Position numbers and translations under genes: made by a program
NCBI GenBank assembly: GCA_040752915.1
Contig: JBFMHB010000023.1
Span: 1-43,219, forward strand
Source of the DNA: Acidobacteriota bacterium
Lineage (GTDB): Bacteria > Acidobacteriota > UBA4820 > DSQY01
DNA length: 43,219 nt
Reading direction: 5' to 3'
Notes under the pieces: model-generated
The model's database searches: none
What the model saw: the letters and a program-made list of their open reading frames with translations, nothing else
Told to the model about the DNA's origin: nothing
In this document: piece by piece, positions 11,066 through 37,559 of the stretch
How the letters are laid out: every line of letters starts with the position of its first letter
Position numbering within the stretch: position 1 is the first letter of the stretch

Positions 11066-11107
11066 GCCGGGGCGGGCTCAGCCTTCCGGTGGCAGGCCCC
11101 AGGCGGG

Positions 11108-11113
11108 TATACT
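11108..11113 (+). promoter_or_regulatory. -10 box, possible leaderless transcript of the FHA-EAL gene
   Basis: TATACT ends 7 nt before the ATG at 11121, exactly the distance expected from a -10 box to a transcription start. This would place the transcript start at or next to the start codon. The only GGAG (11117-11120) touches the ATG and cannot serve as a normal ribosome binding site. The -35 region is weak. Confidence 0.35.
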
Positions 11114-11120
11114 TCTGGAG

Positions 11121-12221
11121 ATGGACGAGCGGGGAAGGCCCCTGGGCTGGTATCTGGAAGGGACGATGGACGGCGGCAAGGCGCTTCGGGTGCCCCTCCG
11201 GGACCTCCCATTCTTGGTGGGCCGACGCGCCGAATGCCACCTCCACCTCGAATCCAGGAGCATCTCCCGCGCCCACGCCCAGATCTTCTCGCGGGGCGGG
11301 GAGCTCCTCCTGCAGGACCTGGCCAGCAAGAACGGGACCTTCGTGAACCGCCTGCGCCTGGGCGAGGAGGAGGTTCCCCTCCAAGCGGGCGATGCCATCC
11401 GCTTCGGTGACCTCGAGTTCCGGCTCCGGCGTGAGGCGGAGGAATCGACGGAGGACACGAGCACGTCGTTGGAGCTTCTCGCGCCGGACCGGGACGTGGA
11501 GAGCGTGGCCGCCCGGTTTCGCGATCTCATCGACCGCAGGGCGGTGGAGCCCCGGTTCCAGCCCATTGTGGACCTGGCGACGGGACGGACCCACGGCTTC
11601 GAGATCTTCGGGCGGGGGACCGCCGAGGGCCTTCCGGAGGATCCTGAATCGTTGTTCGCCATCGCCCAGATTCTCGGGCTCGAAACCGACCTGAGCCGGA
11701 TCTTCTGGGAGGAAGGCCTCCGTGCGGGACAGGACCTGCCCGACTGTCCCACGCTCTTCATCAACGTGCATCCCGCCGAGACCGCCGACCCCGTCTTCCT
11801 GGAAGCCCTCCGGTCGGTGCGCGAGGAGCGGCCCCGGATGCCGCTCACCGTGGAGGTGAGCGAGAAGGCGGTGACGGATCCGCAATCCATGCGCCGCCTC
11901 AAGGAGGAACTCCTTTCCATCGACGTGTGGCTGGCGTACGACGACTTCGGGGCAGGCCAGGCGCGCCTGTTGGAGCTCATCGAGGTCCCCCCCCACTACC
12001 TGAAGTTTGACGCGTCCCTCGTCCGCCACCTCCCTTTGAAACCCAAACGCTACGCCAAGTTCCTCGAGGTCCTCGTGCGCATGACCCGGGACTTGGGAAT
12101 TGCCTCCCTCGCCGAGGGGGTCGAGACCGCCGAAGAGCTGGACGCGTGCCGGTCCGTGGGTTTCCGGTACGCCCAGGGATTCCACATCGGCCGCCCTGCG
12201 AGGGTGGAAGAATTGGCCTAG
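11121..12221 (+). CDS. FHA domain-EAL domain protein (putative c-di-GMP phosphodiesterase)
   Basis: 366 residues. The FHA phosphothreonine-binding domain is at about 20-95 (FLVGRRAECHLHL, SRSISRAHAQI, LASKNGTFVNR). The EAL domain is at about 130-365. The signature motif is degenerate (EIFGR for EALxR) but keeps the metal-binding Glu and the Arg. Other catalytic residues are present: Asn in FINVHP, Glu in VEVSEK, Asp pair in YDDFGAG, Lys in LKFD, Glu in EGVET and Gln in AQGF. Phosphodiesterase activity is therefore plausible. The FHA domain could link cyclic-di-GMP breakdown to Ser/Thr kinase signalling. No GGDEF or membrane segment is present, so it is cytosolic. Confidence 0.85.
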   Translation: MDERGRPLGWYLEGTMDGGKALRVPLRDLPFLVGRRAECHLHLESRSISRAHAQIFSRGGELLLQDLASKNGTFVNRLRLGEEEVPLQAGDAIRFGDLEFRLRREAEESTEDTSTSLELLAPDRDVESVAARFRDLIDRRAVEPRFQPIVDLATGRTHGFEIFGRGTAEGLPEDPESLFAIAQILGLETDLSRIFWEEGLRAGQDLPDCPTLFINVHPAETADPVFLEALRSVREERPRMPLTVEVSEKAVTDPQSMRRLKEELLSIDVWLAYDDFGAGQARLLELIEVPPHYLKFDASLVRHLPLKPKRYAKFLEVLVRMTRDLGIASLAEGVETAEELDACRSVGFRYAQGFHIGRPARVEELA

Positions 12222-12262
12222 TCCGAATCGCTCGGCGTCCGAGGGCGCCGGAGGGGGTTCCC

Positions 12263-13630
12263 ATGGTGTGGATCGTCGTGCCGTCGGCCGTAGCCGTCGT
12301 CCTCGTCGCCTTCCTCGTGCTCTGGGCCTTCAACTACCGGAAGGTGGGCCCCAACCAGGTTCTCGTCATTTCGGGACGAAGCTCCACGATGACGGAACCG
12401 GACGGGAGGTCCCGCAAGGTGGGCTACCGGCTCCAGGTAGGGGGCGGGACTTTTGTCATGCCGCTCATGGAGACGGTGGACGTGCTGCCCCTGGAGGTCA
12501 TGTCCCTCTCCCTGCGGTGCCCCGAGGTGCTCACGGCCCAGGGGGTCCTCCTCTCCGCCGAGGCCCAGGGACAGGTGAAGGCCTGCGCCGAGGAGCCGCT
12601 CCTCCACCGGGCCGTGGAGAACTTCCTCTCCAAGGGGGCCTCGGCCATCGTCTACGTGGCCCAAGAGGTCCTGGAGGGCCACATGAGGGCCATCCTCGGG
12701 ACCCTCTCCGTGGAAGAGATCTACACCCAGCGCGAGGAATTCGCTGAGCGCGTCCGCGAGCGCGCCGCCGACGACTTCGCGCGGCTGGGGCTGGAGCTCG
12801 TTTCCTTCGCCCTCAAGGACATTAGCGACTCCCAGGGCTACATCCAATCCCTGGGCGCCCGCCGCATCGCCGAGGTAAAGCGCGACGCGGCCATCGCCCA
12901 GGCCGAAACCGAGCGCGACGCCGCCATCCGCGCCTCCGAGTACCGGAAGGAGGGGGACGTGGCCCGCCTGAACGCCGAGGCCGAACTGGCCCGCGCCACG
13001 CGGGACTTCGAGATCCAGCGGGCCGAATTCCAGGCCGCCGTGAACGTCAAGAGGGCCGCCGCGGACGTCTCCTACGATCTCGAGCGGGCGAGGCTCTCGG
13101 AGGAGCTCAAGCGGCAGGAGTTCGCCGTCCGCCTCGCCGAGGTGGAACTGGCGGCGCGCGTCGGGGAGAAGGAGATCGAGCGCCGGGAGAAGGAGCTCGA
13201 GGCCACGGTGAAACGACCGGCCGAAGCCATGCAGTACCAGGCCAAGCTGGAGGCCGAAACGGAGGCGTACCGCAAGGAGCTCGAAGCCAAGGGGCGGGCG
13301 GCCGGGGTCCGCCTGGAGGGCGCGGCGGCGGCGGACGCCATCCGGGCGCGGGGGGCCGCGGAGGCCGAGGCCATGCGCGACAAGGCCTCGGCCTACAAGG
13401 AATACACCGATGCGGCCCTCCAGGAGACCGCCCTCAAGACCCTCCCGGACCTGGCCCGCGCCGTGGCCGAACCCCTCGCCAAGGTGGACAAGATCGTGAT
13501 GGTCGGGGAAAACCAGGGGGCGCCCAAGATCACCGGCCAGGTGGCCTCGGTCCTCGCCCAGCTCCCTGAGGTGGTGGAGAACCTCACCGGTATCGACCTG
13601 AAGGCCATCCTGAAGAAGAAGCAGGACTGA
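12263..13630 (+). CDS. Flotillin-like SPFH membrane scaffold protein
   Basis: 455 residues. One N-terminal membrane segment (about 3-24) is followed by KVGPNQVLVISG, the typical flotillin opening, and an SPFH/band-7 domain to about 200. A long Ala/Glu/Arg-rich coiled coil (about 205-400) contains repeated EAE-type units, then a C-terminal oligomerisation segment. Flotillins form membrane microdomains and affect signalling and envelope stress. ATG 12263 is preceded by GGAGGGGG. The gene is in a same-strand run with the FHA-EAL gene (41-nt gap) and the aminotransferase fusion (22-nt gap). A second, unrelated SPFH protein is encoded at 29363-30256. Confidence 0.9.
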   Translation: MVWIVVPSAVAVVLVAFLVLWAFNYRKVGPNQVLVISGRSSTMTEPDGRSRKVGYRLQVGGGTFVMPLMETVDVLPLEVMSLSLRCPEVLTAQGVLLSAEAQGQVKACAEEPLLHRAVENFLSKGASAIVYVAQEVLEGHMRAILGTLSVEEIYTQREEFAERVRERAADDFARLGLELVSFALKDISDSQGYIQSLGARRIAEVKRDAAIAQAETERDAAIRASEYRKEGDVARLNAEAELARATRDFEIQRAEFQAAVNVKRAAADVSYDLERARLSEELKRQEFAVRLAEVELAARVGEKEIERREKELEATVKRPAEAMQYQAKLEAETEAYRKELEAKGRAAGVRLEGAAAADAIRARGAAEAEAMRDKASAYKEYTDAALQETALKTLPDLARAVAEPLAKVDKIVMVGENQGAPKITGQVASVLAQLPEVVENLTGIDLKAILKKKQD

Positions 13631-13652: not shown

Positions 13653-15992
13653 ATGCTTTCGGAACGGGTGAACCGAATCGGGATGAGCCCCACCCTCCGG
13701 ATCACGGCGAGGGCGCAGCAAATGAGGGCCCAGGGCGTGGACGTGGTGGACTTCTCCGTGGGGGAGCCCGACTTCCCCACGCCCGACCCGGTGATCCGGT
13801 CGGCCAAGGCGGCGCTGGACGCCGGTTTCACCAAGTACACGGCCAACGACGGAATCCCCGAACTCAAGCGGGCGATTTGCGAAAAGCTCGAGCGGGATAA
13901 CGGCCTGCGCTTTTCGCCCGAGGAGGTGATCGTCTCGACGGGCGCCAAGGCCAACCTCTTCCATCTGGCCCTTGCCCTTTTCGAGCCCGGCGACGACGTT
14001 CTGATCCCCTCGCCCTGCTGGGTCTCCTATCCCGATCAGGTCCGCGTGGCGGGCGCCAACCCGGTCCTCGTCCCCACCCGGGAAGAGGAGGGCTTTCGGC
14101 TTCAGGCCCGGGACCTGCAGGCCGCCATCACGCCCAACACCAAGGCCCTCGTGCTCAACTATCCGTGCAATCCCACGGGGGCCACCTACTCCCGCGAGGA
14201 CCTCGAGGCCCTGGCCGAGGTGTGCGTGAAGGAGCAGGTCCTCGTCCTCTCCGACGAAATCTACGAGAAGCTCCTGTACGACGGGCGGCGGTTCGTCTCC
14301 ATCGCCTCCCTCGGGGAGGCCATCCGCAAGATCACCGTGGTGGTGAACGGCTTCTCCAAGGCCTTCTCCATGACCGGTTGGCGGCTGGGTTACGCGGCGG
14401 GACCCAAGGAGATCATTTCGGCCTGCTCCAAGATCCAGTCCCACGCCACTTCCAACGCCGTGTCCTTCGTCCAGAAGGCCGCCGTGGAGGCCCTGCGATC
14501 CTGCTCCACCGATGTGGAGAGGATGCGCCAGGAGTTCGAGCGGCGCCGGAACGCCATCGTCTACCGGCTTCAGTCCATCCCGGGGCTGTCCTGCGGAACC
14601 CCGTCGGGCGCCTTCTACGTCCTGCCCAATGTCTCGGCGTACCTCGACAAGGAGTTTCAGGGAGCCCCGGTCCGGAACACCTATGGCCTGGCCTATTACC
14701 TGCTCAAGGAAGCCCACGTGGCCGTGGTTCCCGGGGAAGCCTTCCAGGCACCCGAGCACCTGCGGCTCTCCTTTGCCTCTTCCATGGATCGGATCGAGGA
14801 GGGCCTGCGCCGGATTTCCCGCGCCCTGGCCCGCCTGGAAGCCCCTCGTCGGTTGAAGCCCCGGGCCCTCAACAACGTCCTCACGAAGGTGAGGGATTGC
14901 GTGGAGGCCCGACCCATGGCGGGCTACGAGGCCCGGAACGCCCTCCTACAAGAGGCCCAGAGCGGGCTCCCCGCGGACAGCTACTTCGAGTGGAACGCTT
15001 CCCTGTGCGGGGCCGTCGTCCAGCTGAGGACCAACTCCCCCCACCTCGCGGACTTCTTCCAGGAGAACTTCTACCCCGCCTCCCTGGAAGGGGATATCGA
15101 GCCCCACGCGGTGGTCTACGCCGTAAAGGACGCTCCCGGAAGGGAGCCCCAGGCCCACCTCTCCCTGGAGACGGCCACGGCTTTCCTCTTCAACACGGCC
15201 CTGTACGGCCAGGTCCGCTCCGCGGCCCTGGCCCTCGCGGGCGAGACCGCCTCCCGGGCCTCCGGGGCCCTTCTCGCCCACGCCGCCGCCCTCGACGTCG
15301 GCGGCAAGGGGGCCCTCGTCTGGGGCGGCCCGGGGACGGGGCGGACGGGCCTCCTCGCCGCGGCCCTCGCCCGCGACGGCGCCCGACTGGTCTCCTCCGA
15401 CGTGGTCCTGGTCCGCCTCGGAGCGAGCGGCGCCACGGCGGACCTTCCGGAAAGGAAGCTCTACCTCAAAGCCAAGTGGGCCAAACATCTGCCCGAAATC
15501 GGGGCACTGCTGGAGCGGTCCAAGCTGGAGAACGTGGTCACGCGGAGGGAGGAGTGCCGGATCGAGTACTGCCAGGACTCGGACGCGTGCCCCCTGGACA
15601 AGGGCGCCGCCGCTTGCCCGGCGGCCAGCGTGGACGGACGGCTCATGCTGGACCCTTACTGGCTCGGGGGTTCCGCTCGCCACACGCGGCGGACTTCGGT
15701 GAAGCTCTGCGTGCTGCTGGCCAGGGATCCCGTCTTGCCCGCGCTGAAAACGATCGAGCCCCGGGACGCCGCCCGCATGCTGGCCGACGGCAGCCTGCCC
15801 GGTCACCGGGGCGTGGGGCCTTCCCTGCTCAATCCCCACCTCCTGGGCCTCCTCGACACGGGCCGGGTGGACCAGCTCCGAGCCCGCCACGAGCACCTCT
15901 TCGCCCTCGGCCGAACCGTCCTGCTCAACACTTCGGTGGGGAGCCCCGAAGCCCAGGCCCGACTCCTGGTGGACGCTCTGTCGGCGGTCTGA
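13653..15992 (+). CDS. Aspartate aminotransferase fused to an HPr-kinase/PEPCK-like domain
   Basis: 779 residues in one uninterrupted frame. Residues 1-395 are a complete class I aspartate-type aminotransferase: NYPCNPTG, LSDEIYEKLLYDG, PLP lysine K236 in GFSKAFSMTGWRLGY, and C-terminal Arg in LRLSFASS. Residues ~400-779 are a second unit. It has the loop GGPGTGRTG (558-566) after a DVGGKGALV strand, then RLVSSDVVLV (578-587). This is the layout of HPr kinase/PEPCK P-loops, but the Walker A lysine is Arg564. Four cysteines (C635, C640, C646, C655) could form a metal site. The aminotransferase should interconvert aspartate and oxaloacetate; the second domain may be a degenerate kinase or sensor. 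The start at ATG 13653 follows AGGGG. The fusion's role is not known. Confidence 0.85.
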   Translation: MLSERVNRIGMSPTLRITARAQQMRAQGVDVVDFSVGEPDFPTPDPVIRSAKAALDAGFTKYTANDGIPELKRAICEKLERDNGLRFSPEEVIVSTGAKANLFHLALALFEPGDDVLIPSPCWVSYPDQVRVAGANPVLVPTREEEGFRLQARDLQAAITPNTKALVLNYPCNPTGATYSREDLEALAEVCVKEQVLVLSDEIYEKLLYDGRRFVSIASLGEAIRKITVVVNGFSKAFSMTGWRLGYAAGPKEIISACSKIQSHATSNAVSFVQKAAVEALRSCSTDVERMRQEFERRRNAIVYRLQSIPGLSCGTPSGAFYVLPNVSAYLDKEFQGAPVRNTYGLAYYLLKEAHVAVVPGEAFQAPEHLRLSFASSMDRIEEGLRRISRALARLEAPRRLKPRALNNVLTKVRDCVEARPMAGYEARNALLQEAQSGLPADSYFEWNASLCGAVVQLRTNSPHLADFFQENFYPASLEGDIEPHAVVYAVKDAPGREPQAHLSLETATAFLFNTALYGQVRSAALALAGETASRASGALLAHAAALDVGGKGALVWGGPGTGRTGLLAAALARDGARLVSSDVVLVRLGASGATADLPERKLYLKAKWAKHLPEIGALLERSKLENVVTRREECRIEYCQDSDACPLDKGAAACPAASVDGRLMLDPYWLGGSARHTRRTSVKLCVLLARDPVLPALKTIEPRDAARMLADGSLPGHRGVGPSLLNPHLLGLLDTGRVDQLRARHEHLFALGRTVLLNTSVGSPEAQARLLVDALSAV

Positions 15993-16710: not shown

Positions 16711-18579
16711 TCACCGGCCTCCCCTCCGGAAGGGAAGCGGGTCGCGCCCCGATCGGCGCGGCTCCCACGGCGCGATGTAAGGGGAGAGGGGCAGGCGGTC
16801 CTCGGCGGCCTCCGAGGCGCCGGGAACCGCGGGGGCCCAGGGCTCCACCTTCGGCGTCCGCCCGTCCACCGCATCGAGTTCCCGGTGGGCGAGGTCGCGG
16901 ATCTCCTTCTTGAGTCCCTGTGCGGCGATCTCCTCGGTGAAGGCCCGCCGCCCCTCCACCATCTCCCTCACGAAGGCGGCGATCTGCGCCTCCGAATAGA
17001 AGCGCGCCGGGTCCCAGGCCGAGAGGTCGAGCCCGTCGCCGGAAACCACCTCCTCGGTCCCGAAGCGTCCCTTGCGGTATACGTTGGAGCCCCTCAGGTC
17101 CCCTCTTTGCAGGGCGGCCATGAGGTCGATGGGAACCCGCTGGACCTTCCGGACCAGGGTTTTCTTCCCGGTGGCTCCATCCACGTCGATGATCTCGCCC
17201 ATCCCGCCGGTGTTGTACTGAAGGAAGTGGACCTTCCCCGGATGGCGGGAGCAGAGGTCCTTCACGATGTCGTAGAAGGCGTTCACCTTCCGACCCTGGG
17301 CGCCGATGATGAAATCGTCCATCCCCACGATGCGAACCGATTCCCCCGCCTTGGCGGGGACGGTGGCGAAGGAGTGGCTGGATTCGCCCCACAGGTAGGC
17401 CAGGACCCCCTGGTCGGGCGTGAGCCGCTGGGCGAAGGGCAGGATGGTGTTGCGCCGGGTGATGAAGGCGAAGACGATGCCGTCCACCTCTTCGAGGGGC
17501 GGGGTGTTGATGGAGTCGTGGCAGATGGACACGGTCCGTCCGCCGCGCCTCACCTTGAGTTCACGGCGATCGAGCACGCCTCGCCCGTTCTCGCCGAGGC
17601 GCTCGTCCAGGAAGTCCACCTCCCCCCGGTGATTCACCATGACGTTCTCGAGCAGGGCGCTCCGGTGGGACAGGGCCCGGTACATGGCCTCCTGCATCGT
17701 GAGGTCCACGTCCGTCTTGACGTAGTAGTTCTGCTCCGTTCCGTAGGAGGAGCCGTCCCGGCGGAGAAACACGATGTCGTCCTGGGCCACCCAGGTTCCC
17801 TCGCCCGCCTCCGGATCGAGCCCGAGCTGGTGGCAGGACCAGGTGGACTTTCCCGTGGCCGTGAGGCCGAACATGAACACCGCGTAGGTCTTGAGCTTGC
17901 CCGACTTCTCGTCGCGGGCCCTCACGATCTTGGTGCCCGCGTGCAGACCCAGCATCCCACGCTGGTCGGCGCGGTACATGGCCTGGCGGAGGAACCCCTT
18001 CTTGCACTCCCCCGTGTAGTCGGTTCCGAGGGCCACGTTCACGTCCTGTTCGGGCAGGGTCAGCACCTGCATTCGGAGCTGGTGCTCCATGGGAATGTCG
18101 ATCATGAAGAACTCGGGCCCGGGCCGCCCCCTCTTCACGTCGCCCAGGGTGGAGGCCCATTCGTAGGCCAGGCGGTGGTTCTTGGCGTCGGCCGTGCACA
18201 CGTAGAGGTTGCAAATGGGGTTGAACTCGGGGTTGTCGCCCATCTGCCTCCGCGCGTGAACGAAGGGCATGGTGCGCACGAGCTGGAGCACTTTGTGGAG
18301 CTGCTCGGGCGCGCGCGCCACGATGGACAGCTGTTCTGCGCTGGGCCGTGGAAGGACAACATCCGACCCGGACCCGAGGTAAACGGTCTTGGAAGCGACG
18401 CGGGAAGAGACGGCCGACCACCATAGAGGGGCGCCGCTTCGCGTGCGGAAGGCCGTCTGCAAGGCCCGCTTCCGCAGACGCCGCATGGACGCCCGTTCCA
18501 CATTGTCCCCGGCAAGGGAGGCTCGCAGGTTTTCCGCGAACCTTCGGTACACATCCGGATCGTACGGTCCGTTGGCCAT
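16711..18579 (-). CDS. pckA: Divergent ATP-type phosphoenolpyruvate carboxykinase
   Basis: 622 residues, longer than the ~540 typical of ATP-PEPCK. Matching signatures: TGECKKGFLRQAMY (the GExKKG loop), the P-loop FGLTATGKSTW with K244, VAQDDIVFLRRDGS in place of the usual DDEHGW kinase motif, YYVKTDV (CYAKT) and LLENVMVN. The metal-site block differs from textbook enzymes, for example LWGESSHSFAT where ATP-PEPCKs have a GYTAK-type loop. The expected reaction is oxaloacetate + ATP to PEP + CO2 + ADP. ATG 18579 has GAGGGAG before it. Its neighbour encodes an aspartate aminotransferase, which yields oxaloacetate. The divergence leaves a small chance of a related kinase activity. Confidence 0.8.
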   Translation of the reverse strand: MANGPYDPDVYRRFAENLRASLAGDNVERASMRRLRKRALQTAFRTRSGAPLWWSAVSSRVASKTVYLGSGSDVVLPRPSAEQLSIVARAPEQLHKVLQLVRTMPFVHARRQMGDNPEFNPICNLYVCTADAKNHRLAYEWASTLGDVKRGRPGPEFFMIDIPMEHQLRMQVLTLPEQDVNVALGTDYTGECKKGFLRQAMYRADQRGMLGLHAGTKIVRARDEKSGKLKTYAVFMFGLTATGKSTWSCHQLGLDPEAGEGTWVAQDDIVFLRRDGSSYGTEQNYYVKTDVDLTMQEAMYRALSHRSALLENVMVNHRGEVDFLDERLGENGRGVLDRRELKVRRGGRTVSICHDSINTPPLEEVDGIVFAFITRRNTILPFAQRLTPDQGVLAYLWGESSHSFATVPAKAGESVRIVGMDDFIIGAQGRKVNAFYDIVKDLCSRHPGKVHFLQYNTGGMGEIIDVDGATGKKTLVRKVQRVPIDLMAALQRGDLRGSNVYRKGRFGTEEVVSGDGLDLSAWDPARFYSEAQIAAFVREMVEGRRAFTEEIAAQGLKKEIRDLAHRELDAVDGRTPKVEPWAPAVPGASEAAEDRLPLSPYIAPWEPRRSGRDPLPFRRGGR

Positions 18580-19712: not shown

Positions 19713-20672
19713 ATGGGATTGGCGTCCCTGGCCCTGTACCTGGCGGTCAACGTTCCCCTTTCCGCGCTCCTCCTCGCCCTCATCTGGCTGGCCGACCGGT
19801 ACGAGCGGGAGCCCTGGTCCATTCTGCTCCTGTGCGCCGGATGGGGGGCCGTCCCCGCGATCCTGCTCTCCTGCGTGCTCGAAACGGCCGTGCAGGTTCC
19901 CCTCCAGGCCCTCGCGGGACCGCAAATGGGGGCCTTGCTCGGCACGGTCTTCCTGGCTCCGCCGGTGGAGGAGGCGGCCAAGGCGGCCGCCCTGCTCCTC
20001 GCCGTCTTGCTCTATCAAAAGGAATTCGACGACGTTTTGGACGGAATGGTGTACGGGGCCGCCGTCGGGGTGGGGTTCTCCTTCGTGGAGGACCTCTTCT
20101 ATTTCGTCGGGGCCCTTTCCCAGGGTGGAGTGGAGCTGGGGGCCCTCGTCTTCGGCGTCCGGAACCTGGGCTTCATGCTCAACCACTCCCTTTTCACGGC
20201 GCTCACGGGAATCGGGTTCGGTCTGGGCCGGGTCTTCCACCGCAATCCCCTCGCGGTCCTTTTCTTTCCCCCCATGGGGCTGGCGGCGGCCGTCGGGCTT
20301 CACGCTCTCCACAACCTTTTGGCCTCCCTCGACCTCCCCGGAGTCGCGGCGGCCCTGTTCGTCCACTGGGTGGGCGGCGTCGGACTTCTCATGGTGGTCC
20401 CTCTTCTCTGGGCCGTGGAGAGGCGGTGGATCGTCAACCGGCTTCGACACGAGGTCCGGGAGAATCGGATTCCCCTCAAGGCCCTGGCGGTCCTCCCCTT
20501 CTCGGGCTACCGGGGCCCCCACATCCAGAAGGGCGCCGTTCAGCCCCTGAGAAGGGCCCTGGTGGAACTCGCCTTTGGGCGCAGGAGGCGGGAGGAGGGT
20601 TGGGGCCCTCGCGGGGAGGAGGACCTGGAACGCCTTCGTTCGGAAATCACAAGGCTTTGTCCGGGTCCTTGA
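19713..20672 (+). CDS. PrsW-family intramembrane metalloprotease
   Basis: 319 residues with about eight membrane segments. The family motifs are visible: EExxK at E86-E87-K90 (PPVEEAAK), a second FSFVED block and HALHN, which together provide the metal-binding Glu and His residues. PrsW-type proteases cleave membrane proteins such as anti-sigma factors. A ~90-residue basic cytosolic tail ends the protein. The start follows the preceding stop by 3 nt. The 3' end overlaps the convergent M24 gene by 26 bp. Confidence 0.85.
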   Translation: MGLASLALYLAVNVPLSALLLALIWLADRYEREPWSILLLCAGWGAVPAILLSCVLETAVQVPLQALAGPQMGALLGTVFLAPPVEEAAKAAALLLAVLLYQKEFDDVLDGMVYGAAVGVGFSFVEDLFYFVGALSQGGVELGALVFGVRNLGFMLNHSLFTALTGIGFGLGRVFHRNPLAVLFFPPMGLAAAVGLHALHNLLASLDLPGVAAALFVHWVGGVGLLMVVPLLWAVERRWIVNRLRHEVRENRIPLKALAVLPFSGYRGPHIQKGAVQPLRRALVELAFGRRRREEGWGPRGEEDLERLRSEITRLCPGP

Positions 20673-22380
20673 GGGGCTGGCCGCCCTCCGGAGGATCGAC
20701 CGGACGGTCTGCGTCCGCCAGCCCGAGTGGATCCTCGGGATACCCCCCGAGACGCTCGGCCCCCGCCTGGGTGATCAGATAGGTGTCTTCGATCCGAACG
20801 CCAAGGCCTCTGTACGCAGGATCCACCTCGGCGTCCGCCGGGATGTAGATTCCCGGTTCGATGGTCACGACCATCCCCGGGGCCAGCACCCCGGCATGGA
20901 CATCGTGAACCTTGATTCCCACATGGTGGCCGATGCCGTGGCTGAAGTACGGCCCGAAGCCGGCCTTCTCGATGACGACTCGGGCGGCCTGGTCCACGCT
21001 CGCGTAGGGCGCGCCGGGACGGGCGGCGGAGGAGGCGGCGGCCTTGGCCTGGAGCACCGTTCGATAAAGCGCTTTCTGGGCGGGCGTGGCCTCCCCCACG
21101 GGAAAGGTCCGCGTCATGTCCGAAGCATACCCCTCCACCATGCAGCCGATGTCCAGGACCAGGAAGCCATCCCGGAGCTCCGCGTCGTTGTCCATGTAGT
21201 GGGGCCGGACGGCGTTGGGCCCGGACCCCACGACGGGCTCGAAGGCAAGCCCGGAGGCCCCCAGGCTCCGGAAGGTGGCCAGCACGGCCGCTTCCACCTC
21301 CGACTCGTTCGCACCCGGCCGGATGAGGGGCCGTGCGTTCTCCATCGCCTTGGCGGTGAGGGCCGACGCCCGTCGGATGCGGTCGATTTCCTGCGCGTCC
21401 TTCACCGTTCGCAGCCCGTGCACCTTCTTGGAGGGACTCGCCCCCACCCAGGGAAGGGCCAGACGGGCGGCCCAGCCGCCGCCCTCCGAGAGGATGGCCA
21501 CGGGGTGGGCTTTCCCGAACAGGTAGTAGGAGTCCGCCGCGGAAAGGAGCAGCCCGGGACGGCCCAGCCCGCCCGATTTGCGGAGCGCGTCCATCCGCCC
21601 TGGATGGGCCTCGTCGGACCCCGGCGCCGGCGCGACCAGCGAAGGGGCCATGAACACGAGAAGCAGCATGCCGGCTCCCCACTTCAGAGCCTGCCGCCAC
21701 TCGTGTCTCAGTCGCCGGGACCGGACCTCCGCCGATTCGGTCCAGGGGAGGGGCGCCGGGGCCAGCCACAAAAGGAGAAGCGCCTGCCAGGCCAGGGAAA
21801 CCGCCGCGGCCGCGGCCAGAATCCAATACCCTTCCGCCCAGGGCGTCGCGGCCCCCAGAAGGATCGCGCCCAGGGTGGAGGCCTGGAGGACCTGGCCCGC
21901 CCTGGGAAGGAGCGCTCCGAGGAGGGCCCCCCCGGCCGCCAGGACGAGGAGGGGGATGGGTTTGGGGCGCAGCGTTCCCTGATTCAGGACATACGCCGCG
22001 TACGCCAGGGGCAGGGGCCAGAGAGCCAAGAGAGCCGACGCCAGACGGGGCAGGTGAAGGAAGACCCGCATCAGGACGGCGAGAAACAGGAAGGCGCCGG
22101 CCGCGGCGAGCAGGTAGGAAAGGGAGGAGAGGAAGAAATAGGACACCCCGCCGCCCACGATCAGGAAGAAGGCACCTGCGGACAACCTGGCCGCCTTACC
22201 CCCGGCCAGAAGGAGAACCAGGGCCAGGCCGCCCGCCAGGATGCGCAGAACGAGGACGAGGAGGGAAGGCTCGGGCGGCAGACCCACGGCCATTCCTTTG
22301 TAGGCCGACGCCGCCGCGGGTGAAACGGCGCCCCCCAGCGCCGCCCCCAGCCACACCAAGGCCCGGCTCCATCGAATCAT
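20647..22380 (-). CDS. Membrane domain fused to an M24 (Xaa-Pro) aminopeptidase
   Basis: 577 residues. The first ~215 form about seven hydrophobic segments, beginning with a signal-like helix that ends AAASA. A linker and one further hydrophobic segment at about 238-256 follow. The C-terminal ~290 residues are a pita-bread M24 peptidase with all five metal ligands: Asp and Asp in LVLDIGCMVEGYASDMTRTF, His in IGHHVGIKVHD, Glu in VTIEPGIYI and Glu in VRIEDTYLIT. The pre-catalytic domain of classical PepP is shortened. It should remove N-terminal residues preceding proline; the membrane part places this at the envelope, side unknown. ATG overlaps the stop of the acetyltransferase gene (ATGA), so they are coupled. 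Confidence 0.85.
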   Translation of the reverse strand: MIRWSRALVWLGAALGGAVSPAAASAYKGMAVGLPPEPSLLVLVLRILAGGLALVLLLAGGKAARLSAGAFFLIVGGGVSYFFLSSLSYLLAAAGAFLFLAVLMRVFLHLPRLASALLALWPLPLAYAAYVLNQGTLRPKPIPLLVLAAGGALLGALLPRAGQVLQASTLGAILLGAATPWAEGYWILAAAAAVSLAWQALLLLWLAPAPLPWTESAEVRSRRLRHEWRQALKWGAGMLLLVFMAPSLVAPAPGSDEAHPGRMDALRKSGGLGRPGLLLSAADSYYLFGKAHPVAILSEGGGWAARLALPWVGASPSKKVHGLRTVKDAQEIDRIRRASALTAKAMENARPLIRPGANESEVEAAVLATFRSLGASGLAFEPVVGSGPNAVRPHYMDNDAELRDGFLVLDIGCMVEGYASDMTRTFPVGEATPAQKALYRTVLQAKAAASSAARPGAPYASVDQAARVVIEKAGFGPYFSHGIGHHVGIKVHDVHAGVLAPGMVVTIEPGIYIPADAEVDPAYRGLGVRIEDTYLITQAGAERLGGYPEDPLGLADADRPVDPPEGGQPLKDPDKAL

Positions 22381-22931
22381 CGCGTCCCCTCTCCCTCGAC
22401 GCCGCGCACGATGCCGTACAGCCGGCAGTCCTCGTAGGCGCCCCATTTGAACACGTGGTCCCGGAGGGTTCCCTCGAACTCGAAGCCGGCCTTCAAGAGG
22501 ACCCGCCCCGAGGACGGGTTCCGATCGAAGTGGTGCGCGTGAATCCGGTGCAGCCCAAGATCCTCGAAGCCGAACCGGACCACGGCCTTGACCGACTCCG
22601 TGGCGAATCCCCGGTTCCAGTGGGCGGTTCCGATCCAGTACCCCACCTCGGCCCGGTGGTGCTCCCGCTCCAAGTGCAGGCCGATGGCCCCCAGGAGCTC
22701 CCCCGTTTCCCGGAGGGTCACGGCGAACACGGCCGCCGTTCCCTGCTCCCACGCGTCCGTCTGGGTCCGGATGAAGGAGCGGGCGTCTTCGAGCGTGTAC
22801 GGATGGGGGATGAGCAAGGTGGTGGAGGCGATTTCGCGGTCCGCGCACAGGCGGGCCAGGTGGGGGGCGTCATCCGGCGAAAAGGGTCGAAGGAGGAGGC
22901 GCTCCGTGGTCAGGACCGGACGATGATCCAA
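22377..22931 (-). CDS. GNAT N-acetyltransferase (RimJ/RimL-like)
   Basis: 184 residues with the RimJ-type pattern: TERLLLRPFSPDDA at the start, GAIGLHLEREHHRAEVGYWIG in the centre, and the acetyl-CoA-binding stretch HWNRGFATESVKAV followed by LGLHRIHAHHFDRNPSSGRVL and KAGFEFEGTLRDHVFKWG. Members acetylate ribosomal or other protein N-termini, amines or antibiotics; the substrate is unknown. It is the first gene of a two-gene unit with the membrane M24 aminopeptidase, and both could act on protein N-termini, which is only suggestive. Confidence 0.88.
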   Translation of the reverse strand: MDHRPVLTTERLLLRPFSPDDAPHLARLCADREIASTTLLIPHPYTLEDARSFIRTQTDAWEQGTAAVFAVTLRETGELLGAIGLHLEREHHRAEVGYWIGTAHWNRGFATESVKAVVRFGFEDLGLHRIHAHHFDRNPSSGRVLLKAGFEFEGTLRDHVFKWGAYEDCRLYGIVRGVEGEGTR

Positions 22932-25345: not shown

Positions 25346-25445
25346 CGATCGACCTCCACCCACAGCATACCTTGAAGCGTGATGAAAGGAAGCGGGGGCA
25401 CGGCGAACCGTGCCCCCGCGCCTTGGGCCATCCGTTGCGACGGGA

Positions 25446-28400
25446 TCAGGGCCTGGAGATGTCGGACCCGGCCGGCCTCGCCTTGTTGGGGTAGGGCGGG
25501 GGCGGAGGGACCTCCTGGGGGTTCTTGGTTACGAGGTCCATCAGGTATCCCAGCGCGGCGTCCAACTGGGCGTCCTTTCCCTTCAAGACCTCCCCGGGCA
25601 GGTTCTGCACCTCCACGTGGGGGTCCACGCCCCGTCCCTCGATGAGCCAGCGGCGGTCCAGCCCGTAAAGGCCGAACTGGGGAGGCGTGACGGTCCCACC
25701 GTCCACGAGGTCCTGGTGGGCCTCGATGCCGAAGGCGCCTCCCCAGGTCCTCATCCCGAAGATCTTGGCGAGTCCCTTGATCTTGACGGCTTCGGAGAAG
25801 AGTTCGCCGTCGCTGCCCGTGTCCTCGTTGATGAGGAGGGCGTAAGGGCCCCAGAACGCCGCCTCGGGGTTCAGGGAGGGCCTGCCTTCTCGGGGCTGGG
25901 TCACGGCCCAGACCTTTCGCTCCAGGTGATCGATGATCATGCCGCTGGTGAACCCGCCCCCGTTGTACCGGGCGTCCAGGAGGATGGCTTTCTTGTCGAT
26001 CTGGGGATAGAAGTACCGCGCGAACTCGATGAGGCCGTCCTCCATCATGCCGGGGAGGTGCACGTACCCCACGGCCCCCCCGGAGGCCTTGTCCACATAC
26101 GCCCGGTTGCGTTCCACCCACTCCCGGTAGCGCAGGGTCGCCTCGCTCCGAAGCGTCTTGACGCGGAAGGTGCGGGCGCCCTCCTTGGAGGGCCGGTCGT
26201 TCACCGTGAGGCGGACCGTCTTCCCCGCCTTGTTCTCGAAATACGCGTACAGGTTCGACGAGGGAGAGATCGTCTCCCCGTCCACGGCGATCAGGTATTG
26301 GCCCTCCCGGACAGGGAGGCCGGGCGCCCGGAGGGGCGACAGGTGGTCCGAGTCCCAGGGGTAGGAGGGGAGGATGTGGCGGATGACAGGGAACGCTCCG
26401 CCGTCGGACACTTCGAAATCGCATCCCAGAAGGCCGACGGTGGACCGCGGTCCCGAGTCCCCCAGGTCCCCACCGCTCACGTAGGTGTGGCCCGTGTTGA
26501 GTTCGGAGATCATCTCCCCGATGAGGTAGTTGAGGTCGGCCCGGTTTCCGCAGTTCGGAAGAAAGCGCCGGTACATGTCCCCCGTCTTCTTCCAGTCCAG
26601 GCCGTGGAGATTCGGGTCGTAGAACCAGTCGCGCTCGATGCGCCAGGCCTCGTCGAAGATCTGGCCGAACTCCGCCATCCGGTCCACCCGGACCTTCACG
26701 TCCGAAAGGTCCACGGCCTCATCGGGCTTGGCCTTCTGGCCGGTCCCCGACACGGAGAAGGTCCCCTTGGATCGAACCACCATCTTTTTCCGGTCCGCCG
26801 AAAGGTGGTAGTTCTCGACGCCCGAGGTCACGCTCTCGGCCTTCTTCTCGGAAAGATCGTAGGCCATGAGGTCACAGGACGTTTCGTTGGCGTCGGTGAC
26901 GGTCTGGTACTTGAGGAACTCGGGCTCGGTCTTGGAAAGGAAGAGAAATCCCGACTCCGTGGCCTCGAGCCGGAAGTAGTTGCCGGGTTCCACTCCCTCG
27001 ACGGGCAGGACGCGTTCGGCCAATCCGGCGAGGTCGATGGACGGCCCCGAGGGCATTCCCGGCTTGGCCTTCTCCTTGGAGTTCTTGTCCTTGGCCTCGG
27101 CGGAGGGCTCCGAGGCCTCGAACTCCGGACTGAAGGGAGACGGAGTTCCGGCCTTGAGGACGGCCAGGAAAGGCGAGGCCATGTTCAAGAAGACGTGGTC
27201 CTGGCCCACCGTCCCCATGACCGGATGAAAGGCCCGGTCCGAGAGGAAGTAGAGGTATTTCCCCCCCGGATCGAAGGAGGGGCTCCAGGAGTTGGCCATG
27301 CCGTCGGTCAGCGGTGTGGACTTGGCCGAGTCCAGGCTGTAGAGGTAGATGGCCTCGTACGTGTTTTCGAGCTTCTTGGTGTAGGCGATCCAGCGGGAAT
27401 CGGGAGAGAAGGTGAAATCCTGGATGCCCCACCGTTCCCACCCATCGTCGTATTCGCCCCGGTCGATCACCGTGATCTTGCCCGTCGCCGCTTCCACGAG
27501 ATTGAGTTTCATGAACTTGTCGGAGAAGAGGAGCCACTTGGAGTCGGGCGACCACGTCAGGCGCATCCGGAATCCGAGGCCGCCCGTGGTGAGGGGCTTC
27601 CAGGGCATGAGCCCCTCCGCGTCGGCGAGATAGACCTCCTCCTCGCCGGTCCGGTCCGAGAGGAAGGCCACGCGCGTTCCGTCCGGAGACCAGACGGGAT
27701 CCTTCTCGCGCGAGCCGGAGGCGCGGGTCAGGTTCACGGGCTCTCCCCTCTTCTTGTCCACGGGGACGGACAGGATCTCCCCCCGGTATTCATACAGAAG
27801 CCGGGAGCCGTCGGGGCTCAGGCCGAAGGCGCCGTGGCCGGCTTTCGCGGCGACGAATTCGGAACGGATCGGAACGCGGTCGCTGGGGATCCGGATGTCG
27901 ACCTTCCGGACGGCACCCGAGGCGAGATCCAGGAGGTGGAGGCTCTCGGCGTACTGGAAAACGATGGCGCCGGGCCCCGAGGAGGGGTACTTCACGTCGT
28001 AATCGGTGTAGTGGGTGAGCGCCCGGACCTCCCCCGTCCCCACGTCGTAGCGGAAGAGGTTCATGGTGCCGGCCTCCCGGTCGGACGCGAAGTAGATGGC
28101 CTGGCCTTCCCACATGGGGAAGTTGTCGATGCCTTTCCACGGAGCGATCACGCGGAAGTCGGCCTTCTCGAGGCTGCCCATCCAGATTTCCTGGGCGTCC
28201 CCGCCCTGGTGCCGCTTCCACGTGGCGTTTTCGTTGGAGAGCCGGCAGTAGGCCAGGCTCTTCCCGTCGGGGGAAAGGGCCGCGAGTCCGGCGCGGTCCA
28301 CGGGGAGTTTTCTTTCGGTCCCGCCTTCCGCCGGAACGGCATACACCTGCTCTCCTCGGAAGGGATACTCCCTTCGGGAGCGGAAGAGGACCGAAGCCCC

Positions 28401-28754
28401 GTCCGGCGTCCATCCCAGAACCAGATCCGGGGCCGGATGGTAGGTGAGACGCACCGGCGGGCTCCCCGCCGCGTCCATCACGTACACGTCCACCCCGCCG
28501 TCGTACTGACCCGTGAACGCGATCCGCCTTCCGTCGGGGCTGAACTTCGCGTACCGCTCGGCGCCCTCGTCCCGGGTGAGACGGGAAGCGTCCCCCCCTC
28601 GAGTGGAGGCGGTCCACAGGTCGTCCTCGTAGGTGAACACCAGCCGGTCTTCATGCACGTCCGCCAGGCGCATGAGGTGGCTTTCACCCGTCTGCGCACC
28701 GGCCGCCATCCCCGCGGCCAACAGGAGCGCCGCGGCGTAAAGAGGATTTCTCAT
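25446..28754 (-). CDS. Secreted tricorn-like S41 peptidase
   Basis: 1102 residues with a signal peptide (about 1-20, ending GMAAGAQ). In order: PD40/WD-like repeats forming two propellers (TRGGDASRLTRDEG, FSPDGRRIAFTG, WSPDGTRVAFLSD and others) to about 640; a tricorn core segment (WRIERDWFYDPNLHGLDW); a PDZ domain; and the S41 catalytic domain. The latter contains SELNTGHTYV with the catalytic His and YNGGGFTSGMI with the probable nucleophilic Ser. Tricorn cuts peptides from larger proteases into short products. Bacterial secreted homologues probably digest extracellular or periplasmic peptides. The stop is at 25446; the nearest gene on the same strand is 70 nt upstream. Confidence 0.9.
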   Translation of the reverse strand: MRNPLYAAALLLAAGMAAGAQTGESHLMRLADVHEDRLVFTYEDDLWTASTRGGDASRLTRDEGAERYAKFSPDGRRIAFTGQYDGGVDVYVMDAAGSPPVRLTYHPAPDLVLGWTPDGASVLFRSRREYPFRGEQVYAVPAEGGTERKLPVDRAGLAALSPDGKSLAYCRLSNENATWKRHQGGDAQEIWMGSLEKADFRVIAPWKGIDNFPMWEGQAIYFASDREAGTMNLFRYDVGTGEVRALTHYTDYDVKYPSSGPGAIVFQYAESLHLLDLASGAVRKVDIRIPSDRVPIRSEFVAAKAGHGAFGLSPDGSRLLYEYRGEILSVPVDKKRGEPVNLTRASGSREKDPVWSPDGTRVAFLSDRTGEEEVYLADAEGLMPWKPLTTGGLGFRMRLTWSPDSKWLLFSDKFMKLNLVEAATGKITVIDRGEYDDGWERWGIQDFTFSPDSRWIAYTKKLENTYEAIYLYSLDSAKSTPLTDGMANSWSPSFDPGGKYLYFLSDRAFHPVMGTVGQDHVFLNMASPFLAVLKAGTPSPFSPEFEASEPSAEAKDKNSKEKAKPGMPSGPSIDLAGLAERVLPVEGVEPGNYFRLEATESGFLFLSKTEPEFLKYQTVTDANETSCDLMAYDLSEKKAESVTSGVENYHLSADRKKMVVRSKGTFSVSGTGQKAKPDEAVDLSDVKVRVDRMAEFGQIFDEAWRIERDWFYDPNLHGLDWKKTGDMYRRFLPNCGNRADLNYLIGEMISELNTGHTYVSGGDLGDSGPRSTVGLLGCDFEVSDGGAFPVIRHILPSYPWDSDHLSPLRAPGLPVREGQYLIAVDGETISPSSNLYAYFENKAGKTVRLTVNDRPSKEGARTFRVKTLRSEATLRYREWVERNRAYVDKASGGAVGYVHLPGMMEDGLIEFARYFYPQIDKKAILLDARYNGGGFTSGMIIDHLERKVWAVTQPREGRPSLNPEAAFWGPYALLINEDTGSDGELFSEAVKIKGLAKIFGMRTWGGAFGIEAHQDLVDGGTVTPPQFGLYGLDRRWLIEGRGVDPHVEVQNLPGEVLKGKDAQLDAALGYLMDLVTKNPQEVPPPPPYPNKARPAGSDISRP

Positions 28755-28824
28755 CGCCTACTCCTCCATCGGTTTCGTAAGGGTCCCTAGGTTTTCGTCG
28801 GGGATGCACCCACCCCCCGGTGCT

Positions 28825-29303: not shown

Positions 29304-29332
29304 TTGACAAGACGATTTCATGGTGATATCAT
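29304..29332 (+). promoter_or_regulatory. Strong sigma70 promoter of the SPFH-RHH operon
   Basis: TTGACA at 29304-29309 and TATCAT at 29327-29332 with a 17-bp spacer, 31 nt before ATG 29363. The -35 box is a perfect consensus, the best-looking promoter in the window. Confidence 0.75.
29324..29331. promoter_or_regulatory. TGATATCA palindrome overlapping the -10 box
   Basis: An 8-bp palindrome covers five of the six -10 positions. Its position suits a repressor, and the operon's own second gene encodes a ribbon-helix-helix DNA-binding protein, a class that often represses its own operon. This link is inferred. Confidence 0.4.
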
Positions 29333-29362
29333 TTTGATCGCACACAAGAGGAGACGCTGGCC

Positions 29363-30256
29363 ATGTCGAACGAGAGACCGTATCTGCCGCAGTCGGGTTG
29401 GTTCATGGTGATTCTCGACGTTCTTCTGTTCGCCCTCACGCTTCCCGTCTTTCTCCGGGGCGTTTTCCTTCTGTCCCAGAACCAAACGGGTCCAGGGATC
29501 TCCCTGGTGATCGTCGCCATGATCCTCCTTTTCCTGGCCATTCTGGCCACCAAGGGCTTTCTGATCCTCCAGCCGAACGAGGCCGCCGTCATCGTCCTCT
29601 TCGGAGACTACAAGGGATCGGTCAAGCGCAACGGGTTCTTCTGGGTCAACCCCTTCGCCACCCAGAAGAAGATCTCCCTTCGCTTCCACAACCTCAATTC
29701 GGAGAAGTTGAAGGTGAACGACAGCGCGGCCAACCCCATCGAGATCGCCGCCGTCGTCGTCTGGAAGGTGGAGGACACCTTCGCGGCCTGCTTCCAGGTG
29801 GAACACTACGTGGAGTACGTGACGGTGCAGAGCGAATCGGCCCTGAGGCATCTGGCCAGCTCGTACCCCTACGACGCCTGGGAAGAGGAAGGGGCCGTCA
29901 TTTCCCTGCGCGGCAACCTCGACGAGGTCTCGGGCGCCCTGGAGAAGGAACTCCAGGCCCGCCTGGACAAGGCGGGGGTGCGGGTGGTGGAGGCGCGCCT
30001 CAGCCACCTGGCCTACGCGCCGGAAATCGCCGAGGCCATGCTCAAGCGCCAGCAGGCCTCCGCCGTCATCGCCGCCCGCCAGAAGATCGTCGAGGGCGCC
30101 GTCGGAATGGTGCAGATGGCCCTTCACCGCCTGGGGGCGGAAGGGATCGTCCAGCTCGACGAGGAGCGCAAGGCCCAGATGGTCTCGAACCTTCTCGTGG
30201 TGCTGTGCGGGGAGCGGGAGGCCCATCCGGTGATCAACGCGGGCACGCTCTACTAG
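29363..30256 (+). CDS. SPFH/band-7 domain membrane protein
   Basis: 297 residues. Two hydrophobic segments at about 14-33 and 46-65 are followed by an SPFH domain ([51 protein letters not shown]) and a helical stretch ([32 protein letters not shown]). It belongs to the group of stomatin-like proteins often encoded next to an Arc-type regulator. It probably forms ring-like membrane assemblies. ATG 29363 has GAGGAG upstream. It is followed by the RHH gene after 9 nt. Confidence 0.9.
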
Positions 30257-30265
30257 GAGGCCCCC

Positions 30266-30475
30266 GTGCCCAGGAAAGCCTTTCTGCTCCGGCTGAGCCC
30301 CGAACTCTGGGAGGAGGTGAACCGCTGGGCCTCCGACGAACTCCGGAGCGTGAACGGGCAGATCGAATACATTCTGAGACGAGCGGTGGAGGAGCGCCGA
30401 AGACGGCGCTCCGCCCCGCTGGAGGAGGGCCCCGGCGGGGAGGAGCGCCTTGCCCCGCCCCACCGGGAAGGTTAG
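30266..30475 (+). CDS. Ribbon-helix-helix (Arc-like) DNA-binding protein
   Basis: 69 residues. The N-terminal ~45 form an Arc/MetJ-type fold: strand KAFLLRLSPE, helix LWEEVNRWASDELRS, turn VNGQIEYILRRAVEERRR. The C-terminal ~20 residues are a disordered Gly/Glu/Pro tail. It starts at GTG with AGGAGG at 30255-30260, overlapping the SPFH stop. No toxin gene accompanies it, so an antitoxin role is less likely than repression of its own operon. Confidence 0.8.
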   Translation: MPRKAFLLRLSPELWEEVNRWASDELRSVNGQIEYILRRAVEERRRRRSAPLEEGPGGEERLAPPHREG

Positions 30476-30538
30476 AGTGGGCGGCGAGCCCGGCCGCCGG
30501 TGGCCCACCTCCGCCGGCCCCCTCTCGAGGAGCCCCCC

Positions 30539-35814: not shown

Positions 35815-36021
35815 TGGACTACCCTCCTTCGCCGTACGCTCTCCTCTTTGCAGGGGGTGTGCCAAGGCACTTCCACGGCATGACTCGTCCTGGTTTCCGC
35901 CATATTCCACCGTACCAAACGGCCCAACGCCCTGGACCCGAGACCCGCGAATCCCCTCCAAGGCATTCTCACTTTTGAGATGAGATCGGGCTCAGTCTTG
36001 AGACGGAACGGTCGGCCGGGG

Positions 36022-36030
36022 TGGTAAGAT
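36022..36030 (+). promoter_or_regulatory. Extended -10 promoter for the IUNH-FmdE gene
   Basis: TGGTAAGAT combines a TG extension with TAAGAT, 62 nt before ATG 36093. A TTGAGA upstream at 35998-36003 is too far (21 bp) to serve as a regular -35. Confidence 0.4.
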
Positions 36031-36092
36031 CGATCTCCTCCCGCGCCTCCGGCTTGGGGACCCATCCGGCGCTCACAGAGGAGTCCGAAAGC

Positions 36093-37559
36093 ATGGTCAG
36101 GATTCTCGCGCTCGCCGCCCTCCTGCTCTGGAGCCTCCTGCCCCGGACCGCCGCCGCCCACGGCGGACCCCTTCCCCTGATCGTGGATACGGACCTGGCC
36201 GCCGACGATGTCCGCGCCCTGGCCTTTCTTCTCGCAAGCCCAGCCGTCCGCGTCGAGGCGGTGGTGACCTCGGGCGAAGGGAGGTCCCCAGAAATTTCCG
36301 CCCACAGGATCCTTCAGATCCTCGAGCACCTGGACAGGTCGGGAATCCCCGTGGGAGCGGGAAACCCGGTGGACGGACCTCCCCCTCCGTGGAGGACCGT
36401 CGTGGACTCCCTGGCCTGGCCCTCCCTCGCCCCGGCCCGCGGAGTCCCCGAGCGCGCCGCGGACGTCCTGGCCCGGTCGCTCTCCGGATCGGAACACGGG
36501 GTGACCTACCTCTGTCTTGGACCCACAACCAACCTCGCCGCCCTGTTGCGGGACGAGCCGATCCTGTGCCGGCGGATTCGCGAGGTCTGGTTCTACGGAT
36601 CGGCGCCCGGACGGGACGAGGCCTGCTGGAATCGGGACGCCGACCTCGAGGCGGCCCGACGCGTCTTCGCCTCGGACCTCCCCATCCGAACGATCCGACT
36701 CGAGGAGGACGAGACCTTCCCCTTCGATGAGGGGCTTCTGACAGGCCTGGAGCGCGCTTCGACGCCTTCGGCCCGGCTCCTGGCGACCCTCTTTGGGGCC
36801 CCGGGCCCGCGGGAGAAGGTCAGGCAGGGCCACTTTCGCTCCTGGGACGAGGCGGTGGCCCTGTGCGCCGCCCATCCGGACCTGGCCGCCTTCGCCCCGA
36901 CGCAAACGGGGACGGGCCGAACCCTCCTCCGGTGGGACCGCGATGCCGGCAGGGCCCTTTGGCTCCAGGTGGTCGCAGGGGACGGAAGAAAACGGATGTC
37001 TGAAACGTCCCCCGTCGGCCTGTCGGCCTTTCCCGCCTCGCCGGATCAGTTCCGCCCCGACCTCAAAGGGTCTGTCCCGCGGATCCTCGCCCGCCACGGA
37101 GGCGAGGAGTGGAGGGCGGCCGTCCTGACGAACGAGCTCCACGGCCACGTCGGCACGTACTCCCTCGTGGGGGTCAAGATGGGAATTCTCGCCCGGGAGC
37201 GCCTCGGCGCGGCCCTGGACGAGGTGGAGGTCCTGAGTTTCGCGGGCGATTCACCCCCTTTGAGCTGTATGAACGACGGCCTCCAGGTCTCCACGGGAGC
37301 CACATTGGGACGGGGCACGATTCGGGTGGACGGTGGAGGCGGGGCGCGGCCCGAGGCCGAGTTCATCCGGGGCGGCGAGCGCTTGCGCCTGCGCCTGAAG
37401 GAGTCGGTGCGCCTCCGCATCGACTCGGACATTCGCGAGGCCCTCCGCCGGTACGGAAACCTTACCCCCGAGTACTTCCGTGAAATCCGTCGCCTGTCCA
37501 TCCTCCACTGGGAGGAGCTGGATCGGGCGGAGATTTTCGAGGAGGTGCCCGCCCAGTGA
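36093..37559 (+). CDS. Exported nucleoside-hydrolase-like domain fused to an FmdE domain
   Basis: 488 residues from ATG 36093 (CAGAGGAG upstream). A signal peptide covers about 1-22 (RTAAAH). Residues 28-330 resemble inosine-uridine nucleoside hydrolases: the calcium-binding start IVDTDLAADDVRAL, then VTYLCLGPTTNLAALL and a late acidic EAVALCAAHPDLAAF block. Residues ~340-460 match FmdE (formylmethanofuran dehydrogenase subunit E): NELHGHVGTYSLVGVKMG, then SCMNDGLQVSTGATLGRGT, with the His/Cys residues that bind metal in FmdE. The combination is rare. The next gene, 30 nt later, encodes a cysteine desulfidase, so a link to sulfur or metal handling is possible. The real substrate is unknown. 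Confidence 0.75.
   Translation: MVRILALAALLLWSLLPRTAAAHGGPLPLIVDTDLAADDVRALAFLLASPAVRVEAVVTSGEGRSPEISAHRILQILEHLDRSGIPVGAGNPVDGPPPPWRTVVDSLAWPSLAPARGVPERAADVLARSLSGSEHGVTYLCLGPTTNLAALLRDEPILCRRIREVWFYGSAPGRDEACWNRDADLEAARRVFASDLPIRTIRLEEDETFPFDEGLLTGLERASTPSARLLATLFGAPGPREKVRQGHFRSWDEAVALCAAHPDLAAFAPTQTGTGRTLLRWDRDAGRALWLQVVAGDGRKRMSETSPVGLSAFPASPDQFRPDLKGSVPRILARHGGEEWRAAVLTNELHGHVGTYSLVGVKMGILARERLGAALDEVEVLSFAGDSPPLSCMNDGLQVSTGATLGRGTIRVDGGGGARPEAEFIRGGERLRLRLKESVRLRIDSDIREALRRYGNLTPEYFREIRRLSILHWEELDRAEIFEEVPAQ

Follow-up and report, generated by a model that had tools for sequence, protein, structure and literature searches.

What is the role of a domain of about 380 residues that follows an entire aspartate aminotransferase (AAT) in the same polypeptide? 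The window, by which we mean the whole stretch of 43,219 nucleotides analysed here, contains a single open frame of 779 residues (13653-15992, + strand, ATG to TGA) in which the aminotransferase, residues 1-396, runs without pause into this second domain, the two parts forming one gene. An earlier note on this DNA had described the frame as a complete PLP aminotransferase joined to a unit of ~380 residues, and both the open reading frame and the Pfam match to Aminotran_1_2 (E 5e-80) agree with that description. It had also placed a PEPCK gene two genes away on the opposite strand; the gene is indeed found there, separated from the fusion gene by one DUF3047 gene. The features of the locus are as follows.

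12254..13630, + strand: SPFH / flotillin-like gene, 22 bp upstream of the fusion gene (Band_7, E 1e-24)
13653..14840, + strand: AAT domain, residues 1-396 (Pfam Aminotran_1_2, solved relatives, invariant core residues)
14841..14900, + strand: linker, residues ~397-416 (low pLDDT when the whole protein is modelled)
14901..15989, + strand: predicted degenerate PEPCK-fold domain, residues ~417-779 (AF2, Foldseek, hhalign)
15324..15347, + strand: Walker A-like loop, residues 558-565 (codon of Arg564: 15342-15344)
15555..15617, + strand: Cys-rich insert, Cys635/640/646/655 (C-x4-C-x5-C-x8-C), a candidate metal site
16711..18579, - strand: divergent ATP-PEPCK gene (Pfam PEPCK_ATP, E 3e-25)

Other genes of the window deserve brief mention. 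Just upstream of the SPFH gene, 11103-12221 (+) encodes a 372-aa protein in which an FHA domain is fused to an EAL domain (c-di-GMP phosphodiesterase-type); neighbour clustering showed that this gene is not kept beside the fusion in other phyla. The 718-aa frame at 20647-22803 (-) ends in Peptidase M24 behind a long, hydrophobic-looking N-terminal part that has no Pfam match, and in the 512-aa frame at 36021-37556 (+) a nucleoside hydrolase (IU_nuc_hydro, residues 53-308) is followed by an FmdE domain (residues 373-474). Two long frames of 1126 and 1151 aa, at 25410-28787 (+) and 29318-32773 (-), have no Pfam match at E 1e-5; because the genome is G+C-rich, one or both members of every overlapping pair must be shadow frames.

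The aminotransferase and the spread of the fusion

The N-terminal 396 residues match the solved class I aspartate aminotransferases 6f35 and 1bkg (Thermus) over their full length (E ~1e-95 to 1e-104), and from these solved relatives we infer that aspartate is the substrate of this part. The PLP lysine (K236, 14358-14360), the Asn of the NPTG motif (N173), the Asp (D201), the Tyr (Y204) and the C-terminal Arg (R371) are all present, and all five are invariant in 56 of 56 aligned fusions. Unlike the known enzymes, the window protein bears a C-terminal fusion, and it misses the NCBIfam equivalog cut-offs for AAT (403 versus 550-617 bits). Past the aminotransferase, around residues 401-420, the pLDDT of the full-length model drops to 59-69. 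The pTM of this model, which was run as a monomer, is only 0.54 even though both domains are well folded, and the relative orientation of the two is therefore undefined.

How widespread is the fusion, and is it real? The 56 non-redundant fusions that we aligned come from about ten phyla, and nearly all are about 770-800 aa long. A scan of a public collection, with one genome per species, yielded 34 AAT fusions labelled as Acidobacteria, KSB1, Latescibacterota, Myxococcales, Planctomycetota, Zixibacteria, Fischerbacteria, Caldisericaceae, Caldithrix, Ignavibacteria/Bacteroidetes and one Ectothiorhodospiraceae MAG, some of which labels may be binning errors. Within the window's phylum, 32 of 297 genomes have the second domain, all intact copies of which share a frame of 769-799 aa with AAT; within the window's own family, the fusion is carried by six of the eight other genomes, and the two genomes without it are 64-67% complete. 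In the AAT tree all fusions fall into one clade, within which one later loss is clear, and a single long-branched unfused row stands at the base of this clade in an unsettled position. Purifying selection acts on the second domain (dN/dS 0.08-0.26, versus 0.05-0.11 for the AAT part). The earlier note had allowed for a sequencing error that merged two genes. All of the sequences do come from draft genomes, most of them labelled as metagenome-assembled, as an assembly error or a neutral read-through of two adjacent genes would require; however, the fusion recurs 56 times in independent assemblies, its tree points to a single origin across phyla and its second domain is selectively maintained, and we exclude a merger by sequencing or assembly error, giving this explanation next to no chance.

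Fold and residues of the second domain

What fold does the second domain adopt? No Pfam or NCBIfam family model reaches its cut-off in the last ~380 residues, and PF01293 (PEPCK_ATP) gives no match to the window protein at E up to 1. The AlphaFold (AF2) model of the domain, run on 14847-15989, is confident (pLDDT 89, pTM 0.88), and its best 50 PDB matches in Foldseek are all PEPCK, mostly ATP-dependent, with a best E of ~1e-17 and TM (query) of 0.57-0.73. Profile-profile comparison with hhalign aligns the domain to the linked PEPCK family over 267 columns (97%, E 8e-11), and the profile matches of relatives in the phylum scan (E < 1e-90) span the entire domain. Full-length profile matches and a confidently predicted fold show that this is no P-loop arisen by chance, and on the strength of the model we identify the domain as a compact ATP-PEPCK fold and not as HprK.

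Likeness to HprK (1ko7, 1jb1) goes no further than the ~60 residues that surround the P-loop (profile E 3e-4). Residues 400-779 contain neither the HprK signature GxGIINVxxLFG nor an intact GxxGxGKS, and the window protein misses the family cut-offs of TIGR00679 (17.8 versus 240 bits) and PF07475 (14.1 versus 33.3 bits); the HprK-related kinases A and B (TIGR04352, TIGR04355) give weak partial matches of 29.5 and 23.5 bits, the cut-off being 200 for both. The host genome encodes a canonical HprK elsewhere (L171:1653-2618, signature GLGIINVKELFG), with RapZ and HPr alongside. A classification study places HprK and PEPCK in one group (PMC1079889). The domain had been described beforehand as HprK/PEPCK-like; the PEPCK half of that description stands, and its HprK half is ruled out by the fold, by the family cut-offs and by the real HprK, RapZ and HPr of the same genome. 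The PEPCK fold, together with the canonical HprK beside RapZ and HPr, likewise makes phosphorylation of HPr by the second domain unlikely. HPr is present in all 23 fusion genomes tested, and since it is also common elsewhere, its presence says nothing for a link.

Likeness to the ATP-PEPCKs (PckA, PF01293; 1ayl, 1xkv, 2pc9) extends across the whole second domain and includes the order of the motifs: Y-G-x-x-R at the KK position, the Walker A-like loop, S-D at DD, E-N, Arg or His near R333, and N-T near the C-terminus. In contrast to these enzymes, the domain is short (~380 versus ~520 aa), carries the extra Cys-rich insert, is fused behind an aminotransferase, does not keep K213 and H232 and, in many members, has the Walker lysine replaced. 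The PEPCK residue equivalents (E. coli numbering) were placed by the hhalign profile alignment and not by superposed coordinates, and this match leaves the R65 region of PEPCK uncovered. By this placement, K212 corresponds to R522 (Arg in 55 of 56 fusions), K213 to S523, H232 roughly to L540, K254, the Walker A lysine, to R564, D268/D269 to S582/D583, and R333 to R663 (Arg in 28 fusions, His in 14, and others in the rest). Of the Mn2+ ligands, K213 and H232 are not kept, the former position being Ser in 39 of 56 fusions and the latter Leu, His or Asn; D269 is kept, as D583 in the window protein and as Asp in 44 and Glu in 12 of the 56. Since the equivalents of K213 and H232 and, in the window protein, the Walker lysine are replaced, PEPCK catalysis is improbable, and as far as the profile placement can be relied upon it has very probably been lost. 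The domain may nonetheless bind a nucleotide or a metabolite.

Could the domain still be a second active enzyme, either completing a bifunctional aspartate-to-PEP protein or acting as an HprK-type kinase of small molecules or proteins? A canonical Walker A is retained in some members (PPGTGKST in L055, PPASGKST in L060), and GKTT and DD occur in stand-alone archaeal relatives. However, besides the poor conservation at K213 and H232, the position of D268 is Asn or Ser in the fusion family, the residue after the Walker lysine position, usually Thr or Ser, is Met, Lys, Gln or Gly in some fusions, a real PEPCK is already present in many of these genomes, and a real HprK in the host. We consider an active second enzyme improbable; of the two roles raised by the earlier note, kinase and sensor, the kinase is less likely than the sensor discussed below.

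The loop reads GGPGTGRTG in the window protein, and the replacement of the Walker lysine by Arg564, to which the earlier note had drawn attention, is true of this protein and not of the family as a whole: the position is Lys in 32 fusions, Arg in 23 and Met in one. Arg564 is a lineage-specific state, and with Lys in 32 of 56 it is ruled out as a defining trait of the family. Similarly, the four cysteines noticed before in the C-x4-C-x5-C-x8-C arrangement are present in the window protein and mostly kept in the bacterial fusions, but the quartet is conserved only in part. C635 is found in 53 of 56 fusions, C646 in 55 and C655 in 50, and C640 is Cys in 36 and His in six. The Ignavibacteria/Bacteroidetes group has His for the second Cys and Ser for the fourth, a further Cys standing three positions downstream; in part of the Acidobacteria the insert has a two-residue deletion, with a His nearby. 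This Cys/His pattern would fit a metal site undergoing ligand exchange.

Twelve charged or polar residues of the second domain are near-invariant in the 56 fusions: R459, H485, Y489, Y518, R522, E600, R601, K602, E626, N627, D667 and R680. Their conservation also fits a working ligand site, and this raises the question of whether the domain is an allosteric sensor, turning AAT on or off when it binds oxaloacetate, PEP or a nucleotide, the link to SPFH being secondary. The PEPCK fold offers a natural pocket for oxaloacetate, PEP or ATP; R522, the K212 equivalent, and the charged set of R601, K602, E626, N627 and D667 are invariant or nearly so; all 56 fusions have Asp or Glu where PEPCK has D269; and 55 of them have Lys or Arg where it has the Walker lysine. 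We regard such a sensor as doubtful, since the flexible tether of the monomer model (pTM 0.54) shows no fixed interface with AAT, and since sensing leaves unexplained the constant SPFH linkage, the joint loss and the archaeal domain-PEPCK fusion that are described in the next section.

Genomic partners of the fusion

Which genes accompany the fusion? The SPFH gene lies on the same strand as the fusion gene with a gap of only 22 bp, and the two genes are therefore probably co-transcribed. Its product belongs to the SPFH proteins by its Band_7 domain and has a partial Flot match; the FloT model matches it with E 2e-99, but at 334 versus 700 bits it is below the equivalog cut-off, and, in a further difference from FloT, it belongs to a clade of its own that is tied to the fusion. 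SPFH is directly upstream of the fusion in 44 of 46 loci, the remaining two being cut by contig ends. Likewise, in the phylum scan SPFH is found in 32 of 32 fusion genomes, adjacent in 31 and split by a contig end in one. Fusion-linked SPFHs from all sampled phyla form one clade (100/100) apart from the unlinked flotillins, and none of the unlinked flotillins elsewhere in the phylum lies beside AAT, PEPCK or the second domain. With the exception of SPFH and PEPCK, no neighbour is conserved across phyla, the other clusters being lineage-specific or shadow frames.

A sister family, f2, bears on this linkage. G011 has the fusion, SPFH and PEPCK; G009, G010 and G012 keep PEPCK without the second domain and SPFH, and the stand-alone AATs of G009 and G010 nest inside the fused clade beside the G011 protein (AAT tree, 100/100). 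This nesting suggests that the second domain and SPFH were probably lost together while both enzymes were kept, an event that counts once and not three times and that is seen in draft genomes 88-95% complete. As the f2 genomes retain both enzymes in the absence of the domain, the latter is dispensable for the AAT and PEPCK reactions.

The divergent PEPCK family has an intact active site, with equivalents of R65, K212/K213, H232, the Walker lysine, DD and R333. In the window's phylum, 19 of 32 fusion genomes have this PEPCK, versus 4 of 265 others (Fisher p 6e-18, uncorrected for relatedness). Its gene is directly downstream of the fusion on the same strand in L061-L070, and in many other loci it is divergently oriented upstream of SPFH. 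It is absent from 13 of the 32 fusion genomes, 11 of which have an unlinked GTP-PEPCK instead; the phylum scan found neither the divergent PEPCK nor a GTP-PEPCK in G145 and G231, and neither type is found in G297 and G300, which are fusion-bearing genomes of other phyla. Thus SPFH, which the earlier note leaves out, and not PEPCK, is the most constant partner of the fusion.

The same domain stands in front of PEPCK in intact proteins of 895-908 aa in five archaeal genomes (phylum of a Helarchaeota MAG), and a sixth copy is cut by a contig end. L071 and L168, the two archaeal fusions whose loops we read, have Val in place of the Walker lysine (GxxGxGVST). The Cys-rich insert is missing from the archaeal PEPCK fusions, and no close SPFH is found in their genomes. 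Stand-alone archaeal relatives of 325-392 aa retain GK[ST]T and DD, and their neighbourhoods gave no functional hint. The stand-alone archaeal genes L160-L163 (325-329 aa, intact Walker A and DD) represent an HprK/PEPCK-superfamily group. We read this distribution as an ancestral P-loop enzyme having lost its catalytic residues on becoming a partner domain, a putative direction drawn from sequence comparison.

Does the domain then simply anchor AAT on an SPFH assembly at the membrane or scaffold, with PEPCK as a mere bystander from the carbon metabolism that they share? No partner other than SPFH is always there, SPFH probably disappeared along with the domain, and the linked PEPCK is missing from 13 fusion genomes. 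Anchoring alone would not account for the association with PEPCK (p 6e-18), for the same-strand adjacency in one bacterial group or for the independent archaeal domain-PEPCK fusions, and we consider it unlikely.

A proposed role and its meaning

We propose, tentatively and with a probability of roughly 0.4, that the second domain is a non-catalytic PEPCK-fold docking or regulatory module that ties AAT to the SPFH scaffold and to the PEPCK step. First, the AAT part would convert aspartate to oxaloacetate. Second, the flexible linker would join AAT to a PEPCK-fold domain devoid of PEPCK catalysis. Third, this domain would dock AAT onto the co-encoded SPFH scaffold and, again by a putative physical contact, place oxaloacetate production beside PEPCK. 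Finally, through presumed channelling or control, the carbon of aspartate would reach PEP while free oxaloacetate stays low. What suggests an adaptor bringing these parts together is the linkage of the domain to SPFH, to AAT, which makes oxaloacetate, and, in archaea, to PEPCK, which uses it. Against the adaptor stand the 13 fusion genomes without the divergent PEPCK, the archaeal fusions without a close SPFH, the dispensability of the domain in the f2 genomes and the near-invariant residues, which would also suit a ligand site. A partner domain fits the evidence better than a second active enzyme does, and adaptor and metabolite-sensing roles may coexist. In its widest form, the proposal would have a dead PEPCK-fold adaptor build an aspartate-oxaloacetate-PEP assembly on an SPFH scaffold across numerous uncultured bacterial phyla, the domain-PEPCK fusion of archaea being a parallel case; so extended, we think it rather doubtful.

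PEPCK-fold proteins are known as enzymes, namely PEPCK and HprK. Our search, which covered an open library of 5.39 million papers, found no paper on the fusion or the module; the parts are known folds, and their combination appears to be new. If our proposal is true, a degenerate PEPCK-fold partner module on an oxaloacetate-making enzyme, and in archaea on PEPCK, would be a new use of this fold. Oxaloacetate is scarce and unstable, and its direct hand-over between enzymes is a long-standing question, which a natural AAT fusion renders testable. The clients of bacterial flotillin-like scaffolds are poorly known, and the constant SPFH linkage provides a concrete client candidate for one of them. 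A fusion that travels with an SPFH gene across many phyla points to an undescribed organisation of the oxaloacetate step.
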